Below, one piece after another: positions 6,815-55,658 of a DNA stretch of 64,000 bases (position 1 is its first letter; every line of letters starts with the position of its first letter). The position numbers and the translations under genes were made by a program. Location of the stretch: positions 124,001 to 188,000 of the forward strand of contig NZ_AMRL01000004.1 of the NCBI RefSeq assembly GCF_000299935.1, written 5' to 3'. A model generated the notes under the pieces. That model ran no database searches. It was not told the origin of the DNA and saw nothing but the letters and a program-made list of their open reading frames with translations. The stretch comes from Oceanibaculum indicum P24. GTDB taxonomy: Bacteria > Pseudomonadota > Alphaproteobacteria > Oceanibaculales > Oceanibaculaceae.

Positions 6815-7456
6815 CTATTTCTTTTCTTCGCCCTCAGGAATGGCGCGCCGTGACACGACCTCGTCGATCAGGCCGAAATTCTTGGCTTCTTCGGCCGACA
6901 TAAAACGGTCACGCTCCAGCGTCTTTTCGATCTCTTCGATCGGCTGGCCGGTGTGATCGGCGTAAATCCGGTTCAGTCGGGCGCGGATCGAGAGGATCTC
7001 GCGGGCCTGGATTTCGATGTCTGTCGCCTGCCCCTGGGCACCGCCGGAGGGCTGATGCACCATCACGCGGGAATGCGGCAGGCAGAAGCGCTTGCCCTTG
7101 GCGCCCGCGGTCAGCAGCAGCGAGCCCATGGAGGCCGCCTGGCCGATGCACAGGGTGGAAACGTCGGGCCGGATATACTGCATGGTGTCGTACATCGCGA
7201 GGCCGGAGGTGACCACACCGCCCGGCGAATTGATGTAGAGCGCGATATCCTTGGTCGGATTCTCGGATTCCAGGAACAGCAGCTGGGCGCAGATCAGGCT
7301 GGATACGCCATCATGGACCTGCCCCGTCAGGAAGATGATCCGCTCTTTCAGCAGACGGGAATAGATGTCGTAGGCACGCTCGCCCCGGTTGGTCTGCTCG
7401 ACCACCATCGGGACCAGGGTGTTCATGTAGACGTCAATCGGATCACGCTCACGCAT
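6815..7456 (-). CDS. clpP: ATP-dependent Clp protease proteolytic subunit
   Basis: This is the serine peptidase core of ClpXP/ClpAP. With the ATG at 7456 the protein is 213 residues and begins [20 protein letters not shown], matching the normal family N-terminus. The catalytic Ser109 is in [10 protein letters not shown] and His134 in MVHQPSGG. The frame is open upstream to an ATG at 7525, which would add a Pro/Gly-rich 23-residue extension without an evident ribosome site. The shorter form has AGGA about 13 nt upstream and is preferred with moderate certainty. It lies between tig and clpX on the same strand. Confidence 0.96.
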
Positions 7457-7570
7457 CATCAGTCGGGTGCTTTCCTGCTTCGGACCGGAACCGCCGGGCG
7501 CCCTGCCCGGCGGCGTTGGCATCATGTCATGGGAATTTGGCCCGCAACAAGCCCGGCTTCAAGCGCCGGC

Positions 7571-9148
7571 TCACTCCGACTTCGCGGCGGCCTTCTTGGT
7601 GGTCTTCTTCGGCTTGGCTTCCGCGTCTTCCGCCTTCGTCTCCTTGGCGTCCTTGTCGGCAGCCTTGGTCTTCTTGGCAGCGGTCTTCTTCGCCGGCTTC
7701 TTCTTGCCGGAATCGGCCTCCTCGCCATCCTCGTCGATCGGCTTGAACAGCTCTTCCGGCGTCACGGTCTTGTCCGACACCTTCGCCATCTCGAGGATGA
7801 AGTCGATGATCTTCTCCTCGAACAGCGGGGCGCGCAGATTGGCCAGCGCCTGCGGGTTGCCGCGATAGAATTCGATCACCTGACGCTCCTGTCCCGGATA
7901 GCGGCTGGCCTCCTGGATCATCGCGCGCTGCACCTCTTCGTCAGCGACATCAATGTTGTTCAGCCGGCCGACCTCGGAGAGCAGCAGGCCGAGGCGGACG
8001 CGACGCTCGGCGATGGTGCGATATTCCGCCTTCTCCTCGTCGCTCAGCTTCTCGTCCACGGCGTGCTTATGACCATGATCATGGTCGTGATCGTGCCCAT
8101 GGTCATGATCGTGATGATGATGGTCGTGGTCATGATCGTGGTCATGATCATGATCGTGCGCATGGTCGTGGTCGTGATCATGGCCGGCACCGGCGACCTG
8201 GCGCACGATGGTCTCGTACTCCGCATCCAGCATGCCCTGCGGCACCTCAAAGCTGTGCGACTCGGCCAGCTTGTCGAGCAGACGGCGCTTCACCTTGGTG
8301 CGCGCGGCCTGCTTGTACTCGCCCTCGATCTGCTGGCGGATCGCCGCCTTCACGCCGGCCAGGTCATCGAAGCCCAGGGTCTTGGCGAACTCGTCATTGA
8401 TCTCGACCGGGATCGGTTCGTGCAACTCCTTCACCTCGACAGTGAACACGGCTTCCTTGCCGGCGAGTTCGGCATTGCCGTACTCCTCGGGGAAGGTCAC
8501 CTTCACCTCTCGGGTATCGCCCGGCTTGGCGCCGACCAGCTGGTCCTCGAAACCGGCGATGAAGGTGTTAGAGCCCAGGGTCAGGCGCGCGCCCTCGCCC
8601 TTCAGCCGGTCATCATCCTTGCCTTCCAGCTTGCCGGTGAAGTCGATCACCACCACGTCGCCGCTCTTCACAGCGCGCTTCTTCTCGACCGGCTTGGTCT
8701 GCTGGTTCTGCTCGGCAATACGGGACATCGCCTGCTCGATCTCATCCTCGGCGATCTCGGCGGTCTCGCGCTCGACCTCAATGGTGGAGAAATCGACCGG
8801 CACAATCTCCGGCATGACCTCGACCTTCAACTTGTATTCGAGGTCGGCCCCCTCGTCGAACTTCTCGATCTCGATCTGCGGCTGCATGGCCGGACGGACA
8901 TTGTTCTCGGCCAGCGCCTGGCTGGAGCTGTCCTGCACCACCTGCTCCAGCACTTCCCCCATCACCGAGGCGCCGAAGCGCTTCTTCACCAGCGTCAGCG
9001 GCACCTTGCCGGGGCGGAAGCCCGGCAGGTTGACCATCCCCTGCACTTCCGCGAGACGGATATTCAGCTTTTCCTCGATGTCCTTGGCGGCGACGACCAC
9101 CTTGAATTCACGGGTCAAGCCGGCGGACTGCGTCTGGGTGATTTCCAT
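7571..9148 (-). CDS. tig: Trigger factor with His/Asp-rich insertion
   Basis: This is a ribosome-associated chaperone and peptidyl-prolyl isomerase. With the ATG at 9148 it has 525 residues, longer than the usual 430-490. The ribosome-docking signature GFRPGKVP is at residues 43-50. A FKBP-type isomerase domain follows (DVVVIDFTGKLEG near 165-180), then the helical C-terminal domain. Two oddities are seen: a 40-residue His/Asp repeat (residues 323-362, 22 His and 14 Asp) inserted in the C-domain, and a Lys/Ala-rich tail of about 60 residues. Upstream in-frame codons run through the tRNA-Leu gene and are not coding. The tig-clpP-clpX-lon order is standard. Confidence 0.96.
   Translation of the reverse strand: MEITQTQSAGLTREFKVVVAAKDIEEKLNIRLAEVQGMVNLPGFRPGKVPLTLVKKRFGASVMGEVLEQVVQDSSSQALAENNVRPAMQPQIEIEKFDEGADLEYKLKVEVMPEIVPVDFSTIEVERETAEIAEDEIEQAMSRIAEQNQQTKPVEKKRAVKSGDVVVIDFTGKLEGKDDDRLKGEGARLTLGSNTFIAGFEDQLVGAKPGDTREVKVTFPEEYGNAELAGKEAVFTVEVKELHEPIPVEINDEFAKTLGFDDLAGVKAAIRQQIEGEYKQAARTKVKRRLLDKLAESHSFEVPQGMLDAEYETIVRQVAGAGHDHDHDHAHDHDHDHDHDHDHHHHDHDHGHDHDHDHGHKHAVDEKLSDEEKAEYRTIAERRVRLGLLLSEVGRLNNIDVADEEVQRAMIQEASRYPGQERQVIEFYRGNPQALANLRAPLFEEKIIDFILEMAKVSDKTVTPEELFKPIDEDGEEADSGKKKPAKKTAAKKTKAADKDAKETKAEDAEAKPKKTTKKAAAKSE
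8063..8182 (-). repeat. (His-Asp)n coding repeat inside tig
   Basis: This 120-nt degenerate CAT/CAC-GAT/GAC repeat encodes 40 residues, of which 22 are His and 14 Asp. It replaces a loop in the C-terminal arm of the trigger factor. Codon use is mixed, so selection seems to act on the protein rather than on a DNA slippage tract. The composition is that of a divalent-metal-binding segment, compare the His-rich tail of the FKBP metallochaperone SlyD. Metal binding here is inferred. Confidence 0.9.
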
Positions 9149-9251
9149 GGGGCTCTCGAATCGTTCTCGTCTGGGGCCGCGACGGGCGGCGGTGTCTCGT
9201 CGAATCTCTATAAGCGCGCTGTCCGGAACGGCAATCCAGCCTGATATGGCA

Positions 9252-11985: not shown

Positions 11986-14559
11986 ATGGCCTATACGCTT
12001 CAAATCCTGCACGCTTCCGACCTGGAAGGCGGTGTCGATGCCATCAGCCAGGCGCCGAATTTCGCCGCCATCGTCGATTATCTGGAAGATACCTACGCGA
12101 ACACCATCGTACTGTCCGCGGGCGACAATTTCATTCCCGGCCCGTTCTTCAACGCGGCAGCCGACTCCTCGGTCGCGGCAACGCTGAACTCGGTCTATAC
12201 GCAGCTCTATGGCCAGACCTTCTCGGGCCTGTCCACCGGTTCCGGTCGCCTCGACATCGCGATCATGAACACCATCGGGTTCGACGCCTCGGCGCTCGGC
12301 AACCATGATTTCGACGCCGGCACGGACGGGCTGCAGTCAGTGATCTCCGCCAGCCTGGGCAGCAGCACGGCCAATACCGGCTGGCTGGGCACCATGTTCC
12401 CGTATCTCAGCGCCAATCTGGATTTCTCTGCCAATAGCGGGCTGAACGCGCTGTACAGCAGCACATTGCAGCAGAACACCGCCTTCCAGTCGCTGAATGC
12501 GCAAGGCGAACTCGTCTCCGGCGCGCCGAAGCTGGCGGCCTCCACCATCATCGAGCGCGACGGCGAGCAGATCGGCGTGGTCGGCGCGACGACGCAGTTG
12601 CTGGCCTCGATCTCCTCGCCCGGCACCGTCTCCGTCGAGAGCGGTGGCAGCAACGACATGGCCGCGCTGGCCGCGATCATCCAGCCGGAGATCGACGCGA
12701 TGCTGGCCGCCGGCATCAACAAGATCATCCTGGTCAGCCACCTGCAGCAGATTTCGCTGGAAAAGGAACTGGCCGGCCTGCTGAAGGGCGTGGACGTCAT
12801 CATCGCCGGTGGTTCCGACACGCTGCAGGCCGATGCCGAGGACGTCTCGCGCGGCCTGAAGGACGGCGACACGCCGGCCGAGACCTATCCGTTCCTCACC
12901 ACCAATGCCGACGGCGACCCGGTCGCCATCGTCAGCACCGATGGTGAATACAGCTATGTCGGCCGGCTGGTCGTCACCTTCGACGATAATGGCGTGCTCG
13001 ACGCCTCCAGCATCGACGCCAATGTCAGCGGCGCCTTCGCCGCCACTACGGAGCAGGTCGAGGCACTGTACGGCACGGCGGACGCCTTCGCCGACGGCAG
13101 CAAGGGCGATCTGGTGCAGGAACTGACCAGCGCGGTCAGCACCATCGTCACCGCGCAGGACGGCAATGTCTTCGGCAACACCGATGTCTATCTAAACGGC
13201 GTGCGCGGCTCCGTCCGTACCGAGGAAACCAACCTCGGCAATTTGACCGCCGACGCCAACCTCTATGTCGCGCAGCAGACCGACAGCAGCGTGCTGGTGT
13301 CGATGAAGAATGGCGGCGGCATTCGTGCTGCCATCGGCCAGGTCAGCGAGACCTCGCCCGGCGTGTACGAACTGTCCCCGCCGGAGGCCAACGCGCTCTC
13401 CGGCAAGGAGGCCGGCCAGGTCTCCCAGCTCGACATCCTGAACGCGCTGCGCTTCAACAACGCGCTGTCGGTGGTCACCGTCACCGCCGATCAGCTGAAG
13501 CAGCTTGTCGAGCATTCGGTCGCCGCGTCCGGCGGCAGCGCCACGCCGGGCCAGTTCGGCCAGTGGGGCGGCATCCGCTTCAGCTACGACACCAGCCTGG
13601 AAGCCGGCAGCCGGGTGCAGAACCTGGCTATCGTCAATGATGACGGGTTCATCGTCGATGTCATCGTGCAGAATGGCGAGCTGGCGGGCGATGCCGGCCG
13701 GGCCATCCGCATGGTGACGCTGAGCTTCCTGGCCGATGGCGGCGACAGCTATCCGCTGGACGATTTCATTGCCGCCAACCCGACCTTCGCGAACCGGGTC
13801 GATCTCGCCGATACGCTGACCGAGGCCGGGCTCGCCACCTTCGCCGATCCGGGCACGGAACAGGACGCGCTGGCCGAATATCTGGCGGCCTTCCACAGCA
13901 CCACGCCTTATGCAGAGGCCGATACGGCCGCCAGCCTGGACATCCGCATCCAGAACCTGTCGGTGCGCAGCGATAGCGTCCTGACCGAGCAGCGCAACGG
14001 CACCAACGGCGCCGACACCATCAATGGCGGCGACTACAATGACAACATCCGCGGCGGGGCCGGCAACGACTCGCTGACCGGCGGTGCGGGCAACGACACC
14101 ATCGAAGGCGGCGACGGTAATGACATCATCGACCTTCGGGCCGACAGCGGCGTAACGGTCGCCAATGGCAACCGCAATGCCGACACCATTCTGGGCGGCG
14201 ATGCCGGCGAGGTGCTGCGCGGCGGCAAGGGCCATGACTCGATCGATGGTGGGGCCGGCAATGACCTGATCTATGGCGGTCAGGGCAACGATACGCTGGC
14301 CGGCGGCAGCGGTGTGGATTTCTTCCTGTTCGAGGCGTCCAGCGGCACCGATGTCATCACCGACTTTCAGGCCGGCACCGACAAGCTGTTCGTCACCTCC
14401 AACGCCAATGGCAACAGCATCTTCACGGCCGAGCAGCTGCTGGCGGCGGCGGTGAACAGCAGCGGTAATGTGGTGATCGAGCTGGGCGGCGAGAACAGCG
14501 TCACGCTGCAGGGCGTCACCCTGGCCCAGCTGACGGTGGCGGATTTCGCCGTCGCCTGA
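11986..14559 (+). CDS. 5'-nucleotidase/metallophosphatase with C-terminal RTX calcium-binding repeats
   Basis: This 857-residue protein is probably secreted. The N-terminal calcineurin-like phosphoesterase domain (about 1-330) has ILHASDLEGG, LSAGDNFIPGP, LGNHDFDAG and the later LVSHLQQ metal-site motifs. The 5'-nucleotidase C-terminal domain (about 395-610) has LGNLTADANL and KNGGGIRAAI. Residues about 670-775 carry RTX nonapeptides such as GGAGNDSLTGGAGNDTIEGG, followed by a typical RTX-exoprotein C-terminus ending in hydrophobic residues. There is no N-terminal signal peptide, which fits type I secretion, but no ABC/HlyD/TolC exporter genes lie nearby. A role in extracellular nucleotide/phosphate scavenging is likely. 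AAGAGGGGGAA precedes the ATG, and a terminator follows 21 nt after the stop. Confidence 0.93.
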   Translation: MAYTLQILHASDLEGGVDAISQAPNFAAIVDYLEDTYANTIVLSAGDNFIPGPFFNAAADSSVAATLNSVYTQLYGQTFSGLSTGSGRLDIAIMNTIGFDASALGNHDFDAGTDGLQSVISASLGSSTANTGWLGTMFPYLSANLDFSANSGLNALYSSTLQQNTAFQSLNAQGELVSGAPKLAASTIIERDGEQIGVVGATTQLLASISSPGTVSVESGGSNDMAALAAIIQPEIDAMLAAGINKIILVSHLQQISLEKELAGLLKGVDVIIAGGSDTLQADAEDVSRGLKDGDTPAETYPFLTTNADGDPVAIVSTDGEYSYVGRLVVTFDDNGVLDASSIDANVSGAFAATTEQVEALYGTADAFADGSKGDLVQELTSAVSTIVTAQDGNVFGNTDVYLNGVRGSVRTEETNLGNLTADANLYVAQQTDSSVLVSMKNGGGIRAAIGQVSETSPGVYELSPPEANALSGKEAGQVSQLDILNALRFNNALSVVTVTADQLKQLVEHSVAASGGSATPGQFGQWGGIRFSYDTSLEAGSRVQNLAIVNDDGFIVDVIVQNGELAGDAGRAIRMVTLSFLADGGDSYPLDDFIAANPTFANRVDLADTLTEAGLATFADPGTEQDALAEYLAAFHSTTPYAEADTAASLDIRIQNLSVRSDSVLTEQRNGTNGADTINGGDYNDNIRGGAGNDSLTGGAGNDTIEGGDGNDIIDLRADSGVTVANGNRNADTILGGDAGEVLRGGKGHDSIDGGAGNDLIYGGQGNDTLAGGSGVDFFLFEASSGTDVITDFQAGTDKLFVTSNANGNSIFTAEQLLAAAVNSSGNVVIELGGENSVTLQGVTLAQLTVADFAVA

Positions 14560-50349: not shown

Positions 50350-51333
50350 TCAGAACATTCCGCCGCGCTGCAGCGTCGCCAGCAGGAACAGCAGCCCGAA
50401 GGCGGAAATCGCCAGCGAGCCGGCAACGCCGATGCCGCGGTGCAGCCGGTCGCGCCAGACCGACTCCGTCCGGTCGCCGAACGCCAGCGCTATCTTCCGG
50501 CCATAGACACTGGCCATGGCCAGCGCCGCGACCGTCATCGCCGTGCCCAGCGCCATCGCGAAGGTAGCTGCAACCCCCAGCAGGAAAAGGCCATTGGCCA
50601 GCGTGAACAGCAGCACCAGCACCGCACCGCTGCAGGGCCGGATGCCGACCGCCGCCGCCATCGCCCAAAAGCGCCGCAGCCCGCGCCGCGCCGTCACCGC
50701 ATGATCGTGTGCATGATCATGGTGGTGGTGGTCATGGTCATGGTCGTGGGCGTGATGCGCATGGTCATGATGGGCAGGACCGATACCGTGATCATGGTCG
50801 CAGCTCTCGCCCTTCCAGGCCCGCACCGCCAGCCACAAGCCGATCACGATGACGAGGCTGAAGCTGACGATTTCCAGCACCTTCACCTGCTCGCCGATGG
50901 CGAAGCGCGAGGCGCCCAGCAGCACAGCCAGCACAACGACCAGCATGACGGCACTCAGCCCCTGCACCAGCGAGGAGGCGAAGGCGAGCGCGATGCCGCG
51001 CTTCAACCGGCTGTCATGGCCGACCAGATAGGCCGAGATCACCGCCTTGCCATGACCCGGCCCGGCGGCATGGAAAATGCCGTAGAGGAAGGAGACACCG
51101 ATCAGCGTCAGCGCCGGCCACAGCGCCTCGCCCTGGCTCGTCGCCCGCACCAGCGCCGCCATCTCGCGGTGCAGTTGCGACTGCCAGCGGGCAATCTGCG
51201 CAAGGATGGCGGAGAACAGGCCAGGTTCGCCTGCCGGGGCTGATGGCCCCGCTAACGGCGATTGCGCCAGCGCTTCGGGAACAATGCAGACAAGCAACAG
51301 CAGACACAGCCCGCAAAAGGCGGCGATGCGCAT
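50350..51333 (-). CDS. NicO-family (RcnA-like) metal permease with His-rich loop
   Basis: This 327-residue membrane protein of the nickel/cobalt transporter NicO family has an N-terminal signal or span (RIAAFCGLCLLLLVCIVPEA), then about six spans. The hallmark metal-site motif FHAAGPGHGKAVISAYL is near residue 95, with a second GIRPCSGAVLVLLF. A cytoplasmic loop between them is very His/Asp-rich (about 30 residues from SCDHDHGIGPAHHDHAHH onward). The ATG at 51333 lies 5 nt after the DUF1007 stop. Family members move Ni or Co, but here the operon starts at znuA behind a Zur box, so zinc is also possible. Confidence 0.9.
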   Translation of the reverse strand: MRIAAFCGLCLLLLVCIVPEALAQSPLAGPSAPAGEPGLFSAILAQIARWQSQLHREMAALVRATSQGEALWPALTLIGVSFLYGIFHAAGPGHGKAVISAYLVGHDSRLKRGIALAFASSLVQGLSAVMLVVVLAVLLGASRFAIGEQVKVLEIVSFSLVIVIGLWLAVRAWKGESCDHDHGIGPAHHDHAHHAHDHDHDHHHHDHAHDHAVTARRGLRRFWAMAAAVGIRPCSGAVLVLLFTLANGLFLLGVAATFAMALGTAMTVAALAMASVYGRKIALAFGDRTESVWRDRLHRGIGVAGSLAISAFGLLFLLATLQRGGMF

Positions 51334-51338
51334 GAAAC

Positions 51339-51953
51339 TCAGCTCCCGGTGCAGCTTAACGTAGCAACGCGCGGAAAGAAGGCGCCGTAATAGAGCGGGC
51401 GGCTCATATCCTCCGTCATGTCGATGGCGCAGGCGGGCACGGCCTCGCCCGCCAGACGGAACGGGTCCCATTCATCGAGCAGCAGTTCGACATAATAGCT
51501 TTCGTCATAGAGCCCGACCGACAGCGCCGTCGCCCGCGGATCGATGGCCCGGGGCAGTAGCGCCCGGAAGGCGAAGACGACGCGGCCCTTCTCGATGCTC
51601 GCCTTGAAATTTGCGATCTTCTCGATCTTCAGCAGCGTTCCGTCCGCGCTGACATGGGTGAAGAAGCCGAACTCCGCCATCGGCAGCATGACCTGGCTTT
51701 CCAGGTCGGCATGTCCCTGCCTGGTGAAGCTCTTGCCGTCCTTGGCCGCGAAATCCTCGATCATCATGGAGCTGAAGAAATCGTCGAACACCCAGACGAC
51801 ATCGAGGGCGGTCAGCTTGCCGGCATCGAAGTGCAGCGTGGCGTGGGCATCGATCCAGACATGAGGATGGGACTGTGCGCCGCGCGGCGGCACCGCGAAC
51901 AGCAGCACCAGCGCCAGGAGAATGACCGCCAGCCCCTGCCCCCGTCCGGTCAT
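51339..51953 (-). CDS. DUF1007 family periplasmic protein
   Basis: This 204-residue exported protein begins MTGRGQGLAVILLALVLLFA, with likely cleavage near GAQSHPH. The mature N-terminus SHPHVWIDAHATLHFDAGKL exposes His residues that can bind metal, and the text VVWVFDDFFSSMMIEDFA is a family hallmark. DUF1007 proteins are nearly always paired with NicO/RcnA-like permeases, as here (5 nt upstream of it), and are thought to be periplasmic partners of the permease. The ATG at 51953 is chosen; the open frame upstream overlaps the preceding gene and is rejected. Confidence 0.9.
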   Translation of the reverse strand: MTGRGQGLAVILLALVLLFAVPPRGAQSHPHVWIDAHATLHFDAGKLTALDVVWVFDDFFSSMMIEDFAAKDGKSFTRQGHADLESQVMLPMAEFGFFTHVSADGTLLKIEKIANFKASIEKGRVVFAFRALLPRAIDPRATALSVGLYDESYYVELLLDEWDPFRLAGEAVPACAIDMTEDMSRPLYYGAFFPRVATLSCTGS

Positions 51954-51957
51954 GGCG

Positions 51958-52263
51958 TCAGCCGATGGGCGGGAATTTGGGGTCCAGCCGGCAGCCGCAA
52001 TAGGGGCAATCGAAGGCCGCCAGCAGCGCCTGCCGCTCGGTCTCCGGCACCGCCGTCCCGGCGTCCCGCACCTGCGCCAGCACCTCTTCGACCAGCTGCT
52101 TGTGGCGCTGCTGCTCAGTGCAGGCCTGCAGGCGCAGCTGCTGCACCGGCACCGGCGCCTCCTCCACGCTGAAGCCATGCGCCCGTCCGAAAAGGAAACC
52201 GGGTACAAGCGCCGCAACGGCGGTCAGCATGCTGGTTTCGAGAAGGCGGCGACGGCTGAGCAT
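51958..52263 (-). CDS. Small exported protein with CPYCGC motif
   Basis: Unrecognised 101-residue protein. The N-terminus MLSRRRLLETSMLTAVAALV resembles a twin-arginine signal, with a cleavage-like site near FGRAHGFS. The mature part is helical (QQLRLQACTEQQRHKQLVEE) and ends with DCPYCGCRLDPKFPPIG, a CxxCxC thiol/metal-binding motif close to the C-terminus. AGGAGG lies 7 nt upstream of the ATG. It sits between znuA (72 nt upstream) and DUF1007 (4 nt downstream) on the same strand, so co-expression under Zur is likely. A periplasmic zinc- or redox-handling role is inferred. Confidence 0.78.
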   Translation of the reverse strand: MLSRRRLLETSMLTAVAALVPGFLFGRAHGFSVEEAPVPVQQLRLQACTEQQRHKQLVEEVLAQVRDAGTAVPETERQALLAAFDCPYCGCRLDPKFPPIG

Positions 52264-52335
52264 GGAGTTTCCTCCTGAAAGGGGAACTACCGCTAAAATA
52301 GGCCGTCCCGGGCCGACATTCCAGTGGCCAACCTG

Positions 52336-53346
52336 TCAGCTCTGAGGCATCAGGCAGTCGCGCAGGGAGGTGGCCAGTCCGCGCATCACCTCGAAATAGG
52401 CGTCCGGGCCCGCTGGCAGGGCGGCGCCGATGGGGTCCAGCTCGCCGCGCTTTGCCTTGCTGCCCTCGATCACCACATCGACCAGCGCCGGCCGGAACTG
52501 CGGCTCGGAGAACACGCAGGCGGCACCGCTGTCGCTCAGCCGCTTGCGGATTTCGCGCAGGCGCTGGGCGCTCGGCTGCCGTTCCGGCGACAGGGTGATG
52601 GAGCCCACCGCCTTCAACCCGTAATGCGCCTCGAAATACTGGTAGGCGTCATGGAACACGATGTAGGGCCGGTCTTTCACCGGGGCCAGCTGCGCCTTCA
52701 GCTCGCTGTCCAGTGCCTCGATCCGCGCGACCATCTTCTGCGCATTGGCGCGATAGGCCACCGCATTGGCCGGGTCGATCTCGGCCAGCGTCTCTGCCGC
52801 GACCGTTACGATAGCCTCCGCATTGTGCGGGTCGAGCCAGAGATGGCCATCGATCCCGTCATGCGCGTGCTCATGCTTGTGGTCGTGAGAATGCTTCTTG
52901 TCGTGCTTGTGGTCATGCGAATGCTTGTGGTCGTGGCCATGTGCCGCCGCATGCGATTCCCACGCCCCGCCTTCCCGGCCTTCCAGCGTCTCGACGCCCC
53001 TGGCCTCGGCAAGCTCAATGATACGCGCCTGCTTGCCCAGCGTCTCCAGCGGGTGTTCCAGGAAGGTTTCCAGCGTCTCCCCGACCCAGAACACCAACTG
53101 CGCTTCCGACAGGGCACGCGCGTCGGAGGGCTTCAGCGTATAGCTGTGCGGGGATTCGCCGCCCTTCAGCAGCAGGTAGGGTTCGCCCACCCCCTGCATC
53201 ACGCCGGCGACCAGCGCATGCACCGGCTTCACGGTGACGAACACCTTCGGCGCCTGCGCCATCACCGGGCCGAGGCTGGCGAGCAGCAGCAGTCCCGCAC
53301 CGGCCAGCAAATGAAAAGGACGTCGCAGAGCGTGACAAGCGGACAT
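52336..53346 (-). CDS. znuA: Zinc ABC transporter periplasmic binding protein
   Basis: This 336-residue cluster A-I metal-binding protein has a signal peptide ending near GPVMAQA (about residue 31). The first zinc ligand His is in GESPHSYTLKPSDA, and the classical charged His-rich loop (28 residues of HDHKHSHD type near residue 138) is followed by HLWLDPHNAEAI with the second ligand. VFHDAYQYFEAHYGL has the third. The ATG at 53346 has AGGAG upstream. It is divergent from zur-znuC-znuB, with a Zur-box palindrome between, so expression should rise when zinc is scarce. Confidence 0.96.
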   Translation of the reverse strand: MSACHALRRPFHLLAGAGLLLLASLGPVMAQAPKVFVTVKPVHALVAGVMQGVGEPYLLLKGGESPHSYTLKPSDARALSEAQLVFWVGETLETFLEHPLETLGKQARIIELAEARGVETLEGREGGAWESHAAAHGHDHKHSHDHKHDKKHSHDHKHEHAHDGIDGHLWLDPHNAEAIVTVAAETLAEIDPANAVAYRANAQKMVARIEALDSELKAQLAPVKDRPYIVFHDAYQYFEAHYGLKAVGSITLSPERQPSAQRLREIRKRLSDSGAACVFSEPQFRPALVDVVIEGSKAKRGELDPIGAALPAGPDAYFEVMRGLATSLRDCLMPQS

Positions 53347-53404
53347 GGGAGTGCTCCTAATGCACGAAACCGGCATAATGTGCCGCTATCGACTTGAAAA
53401 TTCC

Positions 53405-53427
53405 GTGATGTTATAAAGTAACATTAC
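53405..53427. promoter_or_regulatory. Zur box between znuA and zur
   Basis: The 23-bp dyad has the core ATGTTA-TAAAG-TAACAT with matching outer bases (GTGATGTTATAAAGTAACAT at the left). It fits the Zur consensus GAAATGTTATANTATAAC. It lies 58 nt from znuA and 24 nt from the zur ATG, so one site could repress both divergent transcripts. Confidence 0.85.
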
Positions 53428-53451
53428 TAAGTGACGCAACGGGAAAACCGG

Positions 53452-54009
53452 ATGACGGAACTGAAATCCATGATCGCGGGGGCAGGCACTGGGGCAGGCG
53501 GCGAAACGCCGGCCGCCTTCCCGTCGGAGCGGCACGACCATGCGCATTGCGTCGATCAGGCGCTGAGTGCCGCCGAGGAAATCTGCGCCGAGCGCGGTGC
53601 GCGGCTGACGCCGCTGCGACGCCAGGTGCTGGAACTGGTCTGGCGCAGCCATGAGCCGATCGGCGCCTATGACGTGCTGGCGAAGCTGCAGCGCGAGGAT
53701 ACCGCTGGCGAGGATGGCCGCCCGGCGGCGCCGCCCACGGTCTATCGCGCGCTGGATTTCCTGCTGAAGCACCGGCTGGTGCATCGCATCGAATCGATGA
53801 ATGCCTATGTCGGCTGCCCGCATCCGGACAGCGAGCATAGCGGCCAGTTCCTGATCTGCCGCCAGTGTGGCAATGCGGCGGAGATCGACGACCCGGCGAT
53901 CCGCCGCGCCATCGGGGAACATGCCCGCAAGATCGGCTTCACCATCGAGCACATCACCGTCGAGGTTGCCGGCCTGTGCCCGAAATGCAGTGCCCAGCAT
54001 GCCGACTGA
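53452..54009 (+). CDS. zur: Zinc uptake regulator Zur (Fur family)
   Basis: This 185-residue zinc-sensing repressor has the winged helix (about 55-115) with ERGARLTPLRRQVLELVWRS, GAYDVLAKLQ and PPTVYRALDFLLKHRLVHRI. The metal sites are seen as GCPHPDSEHSGQFLICRQCG (His plus structural Cys) and the final CPKC. A His-containing N-terminal SERHDHAHC is extra. The ATG at 53452 has GGGA upstream; a GTG seven codons earlier (53431) is possible but lies 4 nt from the Zur box. It overlaps znuC by 11 nt, so zur is auto-regulated with the transporter. Confidence 0.94.
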   Translation: MTELKSMIAGAGTGAGGETPAAFPSERHDHAHCVDQALSAAEEICAERGARLTPLRRQVLELVWRSHEPIGAYDVLAKLQREDTAGEDGRPAAPPTVYRALDFLLKHRLVHRIESMNAYVGCPHPDSEHSGQFLICRQCGNAAEIDDPAIRRAIGEHARKIGFTIEHITVEVAGLCPKCSAQHAD

Positions 54010-54859
54010 CGTTGCCGCAACGACCGCCCCTGCCCTGATCGAGGCCAGCAACCTCAGCGTCCGGCGCGGCGCGGTACCGGTTCTGGACCATATCGACCTT
54101 GCCCTTCAGGCAGGCGAGATCGTCTGCATCATCGGCCCCAACGGTTCCGGCAAGACGACGCTGCTGCGGGCCCTGCTGGGGCTGATCCCCGCACAGGACG
54201 GCACTGTCACCCGGCGTCCCGGCCTGCGGGTCGGCTACATGCCGCAACGGCTTGCCATCGACCCGACGCTGCCGATCACGCTGGACCGGTTTCTGGGATT
54301 GTCGCGCAATGGCGGCAGTGCCGCGCGCCGGCAGGCGATGCAGGAGACCGGCATCGCGCATCTGGCCGACCGGCCGATGCAGGGCCTGTCCGGTGGCGAG
54401 ACGCAGCGCGCCCTGCTAGCCCGTGCCCTGCTGAACCAGCCGGATATACTGATGCTGGACGAACCGGCGCAGGGCGTTGACGTGAACGGCCAGGTCGAGC
54501 TGTACGAGTTGATCGGCCGCATCCGGCGCGAACGCGGCTGTGCCGTGCTGATGGTATCGCACGACCTGCACCTCGTCATGGCGGCGACCGACCGGGTGAT
54601 CTGCCTGAACGGCCATATCTGCTGTACCGGCCATCCCGAGGATGTCAGCCGCGACCCGGCCTATTTGTCGCTGTTCGGGCCGCGCGCCGCGCGGGCGCTG
54701 GCGGTCTATCAGCATCATCACGACCACCACCACACGCCGGGCGGCGGCGTGGTGCCGCTGCACGAGGACAGCACCCTGGAGAATTCCGGGGAGAATGCTG
54801 GGGAGAATGCCGGCTGCACCCATCCCCATCACGGGCACCATCACTACCATCATGGATGA
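53999..54859 (+). CDS. znuC: Zinc ABC transporter ATP-binding protein
   Basis: This 286-residue ATPase subunit has Walker A IGPNGSGKTTLLRA near residue 44, signature LSGGETQRALLARALL, Walker B ILMLDEPAQGVD and the H-loop MVSHDLHLVM. The ATG at 53999 overlaps the end of zur by 11 nt. The C-terminal tail beyond the ATPase core is unusual: a His-rich patch (YQHHHDHHHT) and a second one at the very end (THPHHGHHHYHHG), which could sense or buffer cytoplasmic zinc. The end overlaps znuB by 8 nt. Confidence 0.95.
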   Translation: MPTDVAATTAPALIEASNLSVRRGAVPVLDHIDLALQAGEIVCIIGPNGSGKTTLLRALLGLIPAQDGTVTRRPGLRVGYMPQRLAIDPTLPITLDRFLGLSRNGGSAARRQAMQETGIAHLADRPMQGLSGGETQRALLARALLNQPDILMLDEPAQGVDVNGQVELYELIGRIRRERGCAVLMVSHDLHLVMAATDRVICLNGHICCTGHPEDVSRDPAYLSLFGPRAARALAVYQHHHDHHHTPGGGVVPLHEDSTLENSGENAGENAGCTHPHHGHHHYHHG

Positions 54860-55658
54860 GTTCTTCCTGCGCGCCCTGCTGGGCGGCCTTGGCGTGGCGG
54901 CGCTTGCCGGCCCACTTGGTTCCTTCATCGTCTGGCGGCGTATGGCCTTCTTCGGCGACACGCTGGCGCATTCGGCGCTGCTGGGTGTGGCGCTGGGCTT
55001 CGTACTGGGCATCGACCTGACGCTGGGCATCTTCGCCAGCTGCATCGCCATCGCCTTGCTGCTGCCGGTCTGGCAGCGCCAGCAGAAGCTGCCCGGCGAT
55101 ACGCTGCTGGGCATCCTGTCGCACACCGCGCTGTCGCTCGGCCTCGTCACCATCGCCTTCCTCAGCACGCTGCGTGTCGATCTGCTGGGCTATCTGTTCG
55201 GCGATATCCTGGCCGTCGGCTGGCGCGATGTGGCGATGATCTATGCCGGCGGCGCCGTGGTCCTGGGGCTGATGGTCTGGCTGTGGCGCCCGCTGCTGTC
55301 GATGACGGTGCATGAGGAGATGGCGCGCGTCGAGGGTGTGCCAGTGGAGCGCGTGAAGCTGGGCTTCGTGCTGCTGCTGGCGATCACCGTGGCGATTGCC
55401 ATGAAGATCATCGGCATGCTGCTCATCACCTCGCTGCTGATCATCCCGGCGGCGGCGGCCCGCTCCTTCGCCCGCACGCCGGAGAGCATGGCGCTCTATG
55501 CCAGCCTGACCGGCATGCTTGCCGTGGTGCTGGGGCTGACCGCGTCGCTGCGCTTCGACCTGCCGACCGGTCCGGCGATTGTGGTCGCGGCGGCCAGCCT
55601 GTTCGTGCTGTCACTGCTGATCCCGGCGATCCGCGGCGGCCTGCCGGCGAAAGGCTGA
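54852..55658 (+). CDS. znuB: Zinc ABC transporter permease
   Basis: This 268-residue, about eight-span permease of the ABC-3 family reads FFLRALLGGLGVAALAGPLG at the start, FIVWRRMAFFGDTLAHSALL (the conserved family loop near 30-50), DLLGYLFGDILAVGW, and LLITSLLIIPAAAARSFA. The ATG at 54852 overlaps the znuC stop by 8 nt, so it is translationally coupled. It completes the Zur-controlled importer. Confidence 0.96.
   Translation: MDEFFLRALLGGLGVAALAGPLGSFIVWRRMAFFGDTLAHSALLGVALGFVLGIDLTLGIFASCIAIALLLPVWQRQQKLPGDTLLGILSHTALSLGLVTIAFLSTLRVDLLGYLFGDILAVGWRDVAMIYAGGAVVLGLMVWLWRPLLSMTVHEEMARVEGVPVERVKLGFVLLLAITVAIAMKIIGMLLITSLLIIPAAAARSFARTPESMALYASLTGMLAVVLGLTASLRFDLPTGPAIVVAAASLFVLSLLIPAIRGGLPAKG

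Follow-up and report, generated by a model that had tools for sequence, protein, structure and literature searches.

A His/Asp run, predicted to be disordered, at the arm tip of the single trigger factor of Oceanibaculum indicum P24: a candidate metal-buffering segment

The only trigger factor (TF) of Oceanibaculum indicum P24 carries a 40-residue run rich in His and Asp within one of its C-terminal arms. The gene, tig, lies at 7571..9148 on the minus strand of the 64,000-nucleotide stretch of DNA that we analyzed (the window), and codon reading places the insert at residues 323-362 of the 525-residue product (8063..8182, minus strand). Judging from its sequence, metal binding by the insert is very likely. 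We consider it a little better than an even chance that this disordered segment chelates metal and gives the sole TF a side job as a high-capacity buffer of divalent metal, probably zinc; both the choice of zinc and the benefit from buffering are inferred.

The 525-aa product is a genuine, single-copy TF. A Pfam scan found the three TF domains in order and above the cut-off (Trigger_N 2.4e-38, FKBP 5.4e-17, Trigger_C 1.7e-30), and an AF2 model supported the assignment. Trigger_N was matched only once in the 3.95-Mb assembly, which rules out a specialized TF paralogue for this genome. The ribosome-binding motif GFRxGxxP, a TF signature named in a passage of PMC5988418, is intact as GFRPGKVP (residues 43-50; 8999..9022, minus strand), and its G43, F44, R45, G47 and P50 are invariant across 24 TFs. 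The FKBP-type PPIase domain (PF00254) is encoded at 8429..8680 on the minus strand. As had been claimed from the sequence at the outset, a long Lys/Ala-rich tail follows the insert: residues 475-525 (7574..7726, minus strand) are predicted to be disordered (pLDDT <50) and are devoid of His. Tails of at least 35 aa were present in 62 of 161 alphaproteobacterial TF rows, and Lys and Ala made up at least 40% of the tail in 54 of those 62.

The gene order at the locus, taken from the open reading frames, is tig, clpP, clpX and lon, where the names of the three neighbors are our own reading of the frames. A 763-aa open frame runs antisense to tig and clpP (6953-9244, plus strand) and reads the His/Asp run as a Met/Val/Ile-rich stretch. 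It is probably a by-product of GC-rich coding.

The insert comprises 22 His, 14 Asp, 2 Gly, 1 Ala and 1 Lys. The original prediction gave the His and Asp counts exactly but described these residues as standing in a row, whereas the two Gly, the Ala and the Lys make four interruptions. The insert is far beyond chance: the pattern CAYGAYCAYGAYCAY matched 12 times in the window, with 10 of the matches in the insert, and was absent from 100 dinucleotide-preserving shuffles. When the 120-nt insert DNA was folded as RNA, stability was only slightly above that of shuffles (z -1.74; 10 of 200 shuffles folded as well), and an RNA-level function was dropped on this ground.

Pfam splits Trigger_C around the run, which bears out the claim that the insert breaks the C-terminal chaperone arm. 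In an alignment to E. coli TF, residue 320 of the window protein corresponds to residue 320 and residue 376 to residue 337; E. coli residues 321-336 therefore give way to the run together with its flanks. The AF2 model, built with 24 sequences (mean pLDDT 81.4, pTM 0.65), has the TF fold with two C-terminal arms and aligns with PDB 1w26 over 426 residues (Z 23.9, 32% identity); the rmsd of 11.2 probably reflects shifted domains. Residues 324-362 of the model have pLDDT <50 and lie between the two helices of the arm-1 hairpin, formed by residues 304-326 on the N-terminal side (8171..8239, minus strand) and residues 370-396 on the C-terminal side (7961..8041, minus strand). The insert is predicted to be the disordered tip of this helical hairpin.

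The original prediction was to be refuted by an insert that was confined to one strain and erratic in length. This refutation failed: each of the four genus genomes has the run, which extends to 14 families, although its length does vary within the genus (43, 38, 43 and 51 aa, a range of 38-51 aa). An artefact of a single assembly is also excluded by the four genus genomes and by named ones, among them the complete genome of Kordiimonadales IMCC3096 (L032).

We surveyed 385 alphaproteobacterial genomes and read the TF in 149 of them. Trigger_C was matched in 361 of the 385, while the insert with its flanks, used as a query, gave matches in 48 at E 1e-12, many via the flanks alone. A pattern encoding HDHDHDH occurred in 110 of the 385; no TF was found in three of these 110 (G082, G104 and G314) and only fragments in another three (G204, G291 and G367). 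Using our own threshold for a His cluster (at least 4 His in 24 residues), we found an arm-tip cluster in at least 27 of the 149 genomes with a TF read and in 14 of 88 families, which is not a prevalence, as most of these genomes had been picked because of an HD pattern, a split Trigger_C match or kinship. The floor is 27 of the 385 class genomes, or 28 with a TF fragment (L088 of G291), and one TF (L120 of G039) was counted as positive although its insert mostly reads N. A cluster in the C-terminal tail was found in 4 of the 149. Three family-level groups had the cluster in every TF read (f1 4/4, f110 4/4, f83 3/3) and four were mixed (f98 1/4, f108 2/4, f35 2/4, f114 3/4). The median length of the arm-tip site was 26 aa without a cluster versus 50 aa with one. 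One arm-tip insert, HVHGPNCNHDHDH, near residue 334 of L100 (G111), has Cys among its His, unlike most others.

The arm-tip HD run is scattered and rare at large. In a phylum-wide sample of 349 genomes it was present in two, the window genome and G110, among the matches listed. The scan outside the class used patterns including HDHDHDHD and is biased to such loci; among the matches listed were an arm-tip version in a Gemmatimonadetes MAG (L051), C-terminal-tail versions in Actinomycetota (L053, L060-L064, L067) and Bacteroidota (L069, L070), and an HD run in the PPIase region of a Chloroflexi MAG TF (L068). Within the class, tail versions occur in Sphingomonas, Parvibaculum and Aestuariivirga, and a divergent alphaproteobacterial TF (L130) also has an HD run in its PPIase region.

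To follow these states we used a TF tree of 161 rows, built by a quick method with no mixture model and with the insert and tail columns left out. It required at least 15 changes in the arm-tip state and at least six in the tail state, counts that pool gains and losses. A second tree of 152 rows, from which nine rows that were long or badly placed had been removed along with the duplicate locus of the window itself, gave the same counts, and its branches with SH-aLRT of at least 95 force nine arm-tip changes and two tail changes. One starred clade of ten TFs comprises the window's genus, f97, f108 and one marine MAG, and the run is present in 8 of the 10. The two members that are devoid of it (L094 of G303 and L110 of G214) belong to 1.5-Mb f108 genomes and have a 46-aa insert with 2 His; as we read them, the spacer survived and the chelating run did not.

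Proteins other than TF provide a second line of evidence. After merging by hand, the matches listed for the class gave 64 distinct HDHDHDH loci. TF accounts for 6 of these 64, though it is one gene among thousands; the other 58 are non-TF, and in 57 of them the frame that encodes the HD run is open. Among the best 25 of 32 families, the Pfam tally for these frames was cobW 14, nitrile hydratase alpha 13, CbiX 4, UreE 3, ABC ATPase 3, ZnuA 2, NicO 2, RNase E/G 2 and FtsX 2, with one each of P-type ATPase, ZrgA, cation efflux and DUF3500. The metal roles of cobW, nitrile hydratase, CbiX, UreE, ZnuA, NicO and the like are well known, and families of metal transport, metal insertion or metalloenzymes account for up to 41 of the 57 frames (counts per family). 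The 13 nitrile hydratase alpha frames, within L222-L277 (e.g., L255, L256, L274-L277), often have an N-terminal HDHDHD stretch, as if it were the enzyme's own metal-loading tag. HD runs are also carried by two RNase E/G frames (L246 of G040 and L248 of G340), which are housekeeping proteins with no listed metal-trafficking role, and long ones by two FtsX/MacB-like permeases (L228 of G177 and L229 of G272). In the window genome itself, the named HDH-rich proteins besides TF are a CobW GTPase (L132), ZnuA and NicO; no convincing gene was assigned at two more places that match the pattern (C4:78330 and C9:100184).

The window also contains a zinc locus (50350-55658). Here znuA, encoding a zinc-uptake binding protein (PF01297; 52336..53376, minus strand) with its own HDHKHSHDHKH loop, is divergent from a Fur-family gene (PF01475; 53431..54009, plus strand) that we take to be zur by its position. 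A palindrome scan found a perfect, Zur-box-like palindrome, TGTTATAAAGTAACA, between the two (53409..53423). A znuC-like ABC ATPase with a His-rich C terminus and a membrane component are encoded on the plus side, and DUF1007 and NicO genes adjoin on the minus strand, the latter encoding a Ni/Co transporter with an HDH-rich loop (PF03824; 50350..51336). The palindrome between znuA and zur was the only clean one of its kind in the window, and no near-consensus Zur-like palindrome was found upstream of tig. Therefore, tig is not visibly zinc-regulated; we rejected zinc regulation of tig, and the result counts against a dedicated zinc-stress role. At 11986-14559 (plus strand) the window encodes an 857-aa protein in which RTX calcium-binding repeats come after a 5'-nucleotidase C-terminal domain.

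If the insert is a metal buffer, it would work as a disordered, multi-site ligand whose HxH pairs bind a number of divalent metal ions; zinc is the most likely of these, and nickel, cobalt or copper would probably bind in vitro too. The Asp residues would keep it soluble and extended, and the cell's only TF, an abundant protein, would thereby become a cytosolic metal buffer. Our analysis shows the position of the insert, its predicted disorder, its conserved state in the genus, its repeated evolution, selection at the protein level and a motif common to metal-handling proteins. The buffer reading draws on the hosts of the motif, the CobW, ZnuA and NicO proteins of the same genome, recurrence, selection on the protein, Cu(II) binding by mycobacterial GroEL1 and a SlyD-like FKBP that has no His tail (both discussed below). 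Several observations count against it: the trait is patchy (f98 1/4, f108 2/4, with the 46-aa f108 inserts devoid of an HD run), it is rare (2 of 349 in the phylum sample, among the matches listed), tig has no Zur-like palindrome nearby, and HD runs occur in two RNase E and two FtsX-like permease frames that have no obvious metal role.

One alternative is that the run is a tolerated low-complexity expansion, i.e., a hexanucleotide repeat that slippage lengthened in a surface loop open to such growth, which may bind metal in vitro with no benefit to the cell. The range of insert lengths within the genus, the patchy presence across genomes, the long pure repeats in relatives (10 identical hexamers in L069, 8 in L042 and 7 in L049) and the Ala/Pro-rich insert, about as long, that another TF (L109) has at this site are consistent with slippage. 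However, we consider it unlikely. In the window run no hexamer is repeated exactly in tandem beyond 2 copies. When 38 runs were pooled (917 codons; delimited by His, so that the counts somewhat favor His), we counted 489 CAY (His) versus 2 CAR (Gln) codons and 325 GAY (Asp) versus 12 GAR (Glu) codons, although the third bases were mixed (T 373, C 441). Free T/C turnover at the third base together with the near-zero Gln and Glu therefore argues that selection acts on the protein. When the window TF was compared with its closest relative (97% identical in tree columns), two-fold codons under identical residues agreed at 9 of 31 positions inside the run, a value due in part to repeat turnover and misregister, versus 170 of 198 outside. 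As read from these codons, the DNA has been scrambled while His and Asp were kept, which points to protein-level selection and not to slippage. Drift alone, moreover, would not predict that runs of this kind occur mostly in metal-handling proteins.

It could also be speculated that the insert is a co-translational metallochaperone or a metal-sensitive switch, with metal at the arm tip passed to nascent metalloproteins or shifting TF among its monomer, dimer and ribosome-bound forms. A passage of PMC5988418 describes the E. coli TF dimer, in which the ribosome-binding domain is contacted by arm-1 residues Leu314, Phe322, Leu332, Leu336 and Phe337. The insert, which stands in place of E. coli 321-336, would swap out part of this contact; the ribosome signature is intact and the genome's single TF bears the insert. 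On the other hand, the tail and PPIase-domain versions found elsewhere sit away from the dimer interface, and therefore one shared interface mechanism cannot account for all of them. We regard a switch of this kind as improbable. In its fullest form, TF would have been made a metallochaperone repeatedly, an arm-tip (HD)n holding zinc beside nascent chains and either loading them co-translationally or, because the run replaces a piece of the interface between dimer and ribosome domain, making the monomer/dimer/ribosome balance zinc-dependent; for this, too, the chances appear slim. Least likely is a charged, pH-responsive spacer that alters substrate binding or dimerization with no metal involved: the arm-tip site, the predicted disorder, the titration of His near physiological pH and the inserts at the site that have no His (L109, L116, L127) would suit it, but Glu should then do as well as Asp (GAR 12 versus GAY 325) and the motif matches metal proteins.

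The broader question is how new metalloproteins obtain the right metal in the cytosol, and whether this starts at the ribosome. A nascent-chain chaperone with a repeatedly gained, metal-binding-like arm offers a concrete and deletable handle on this question. Should buffering be its sole role, a protein so abundant would still, through its 22 clustered His, represent a sizeable cytosolic metal pool. TF from species that carry the run may also co-purify on nickel resin.

The window TF resembles E. coli Tig (1w26) in overall architecture, in its ribosome signature, PPIase domain and arms, and in being single-copy, and differs from it at the arm-1 tip, which is short in E. coli (residues 321-336) and holds the His/Asp run here. 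The metal tail of SlyD is C-terminal. SlyD and the window TF share the FKBP domain (84 residues aligned, Z about 11) and are both chaperones with a His-rich segment; however, SlyD has no TF arm of the kind that holds the run, and the window TF has no insert-in-flap domain. Its PPIase region is a plain FKBP_C within a full TF, and SlyD chains (145-157 residues) align over only 83-84 residues. With the insert-in-flap domain missing and the His run internal (323-362) and not C-terminal, we rejected membership of the SlyD group. A second FKBP of the genome, which we take to be SlyD-like from its sequence, has no His tail at its end; this fits TF as the FKBP-family protein with a metal segment, though it is only suggestive. 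The SlyD analogy drawn at the outset thus holds for a His-rich segment on an FKBP-domain chaperone and fails in that the run is internal to the arm and the SlyD-like FKBP has no His tail.

Among the open-licence papers that our searches listed, none dealt with a His-rich insert in TF, which is not proof of absence. According to an excerpt of PMC10170517, the tail of mycobacterial GroEL1, DHDHHHGHAH, binds Cu(II). GroEL1 is likewise a chaperone-family protein with a His-rich segment of metal-binding type, but it is a chaperonin paralogue with the segment in a C-terminal tail, whereas the window TF is the sole copy and its segment is internal. The original interpretation is supported in part: the claim of a metal-binding-like segment in TF gains from this Cu(II) binding and from the occurrence of the same HD runs mostly in metal-handling proteins, while the SlyD analogy supports it only in part. 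Part of PMC7840056 describes nickel handling by SlyD and by H. pylori HspA, a GroES with a His/Cys-rich extension. HspA is similar as a chaperone with a nickel-sequestering extension; unlike the run in TF, that extension is C-terminal, contains Cys and belongs to a nickel/urease context. His stretches in HypB and UreG, and COG0523 proteins in zinc homeostasis, are described in a section of PMC2770081. The His-rich loops of COG0523/CobW, ZnuA and NicO have the same HDH-rich composition as the insert and occur in the same genome, but these are dedicated metal GTPases and transporters and TF is a general chaperone. With 22 of 40 residues His, the insert gives the window TF the His-rich segment expected in a working class of metal-binding chaperones modelled on SlyD, HspA and GroEL1. 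His-rich chaperones are already known, and the window TF adds an internal, arm-tip case to them.
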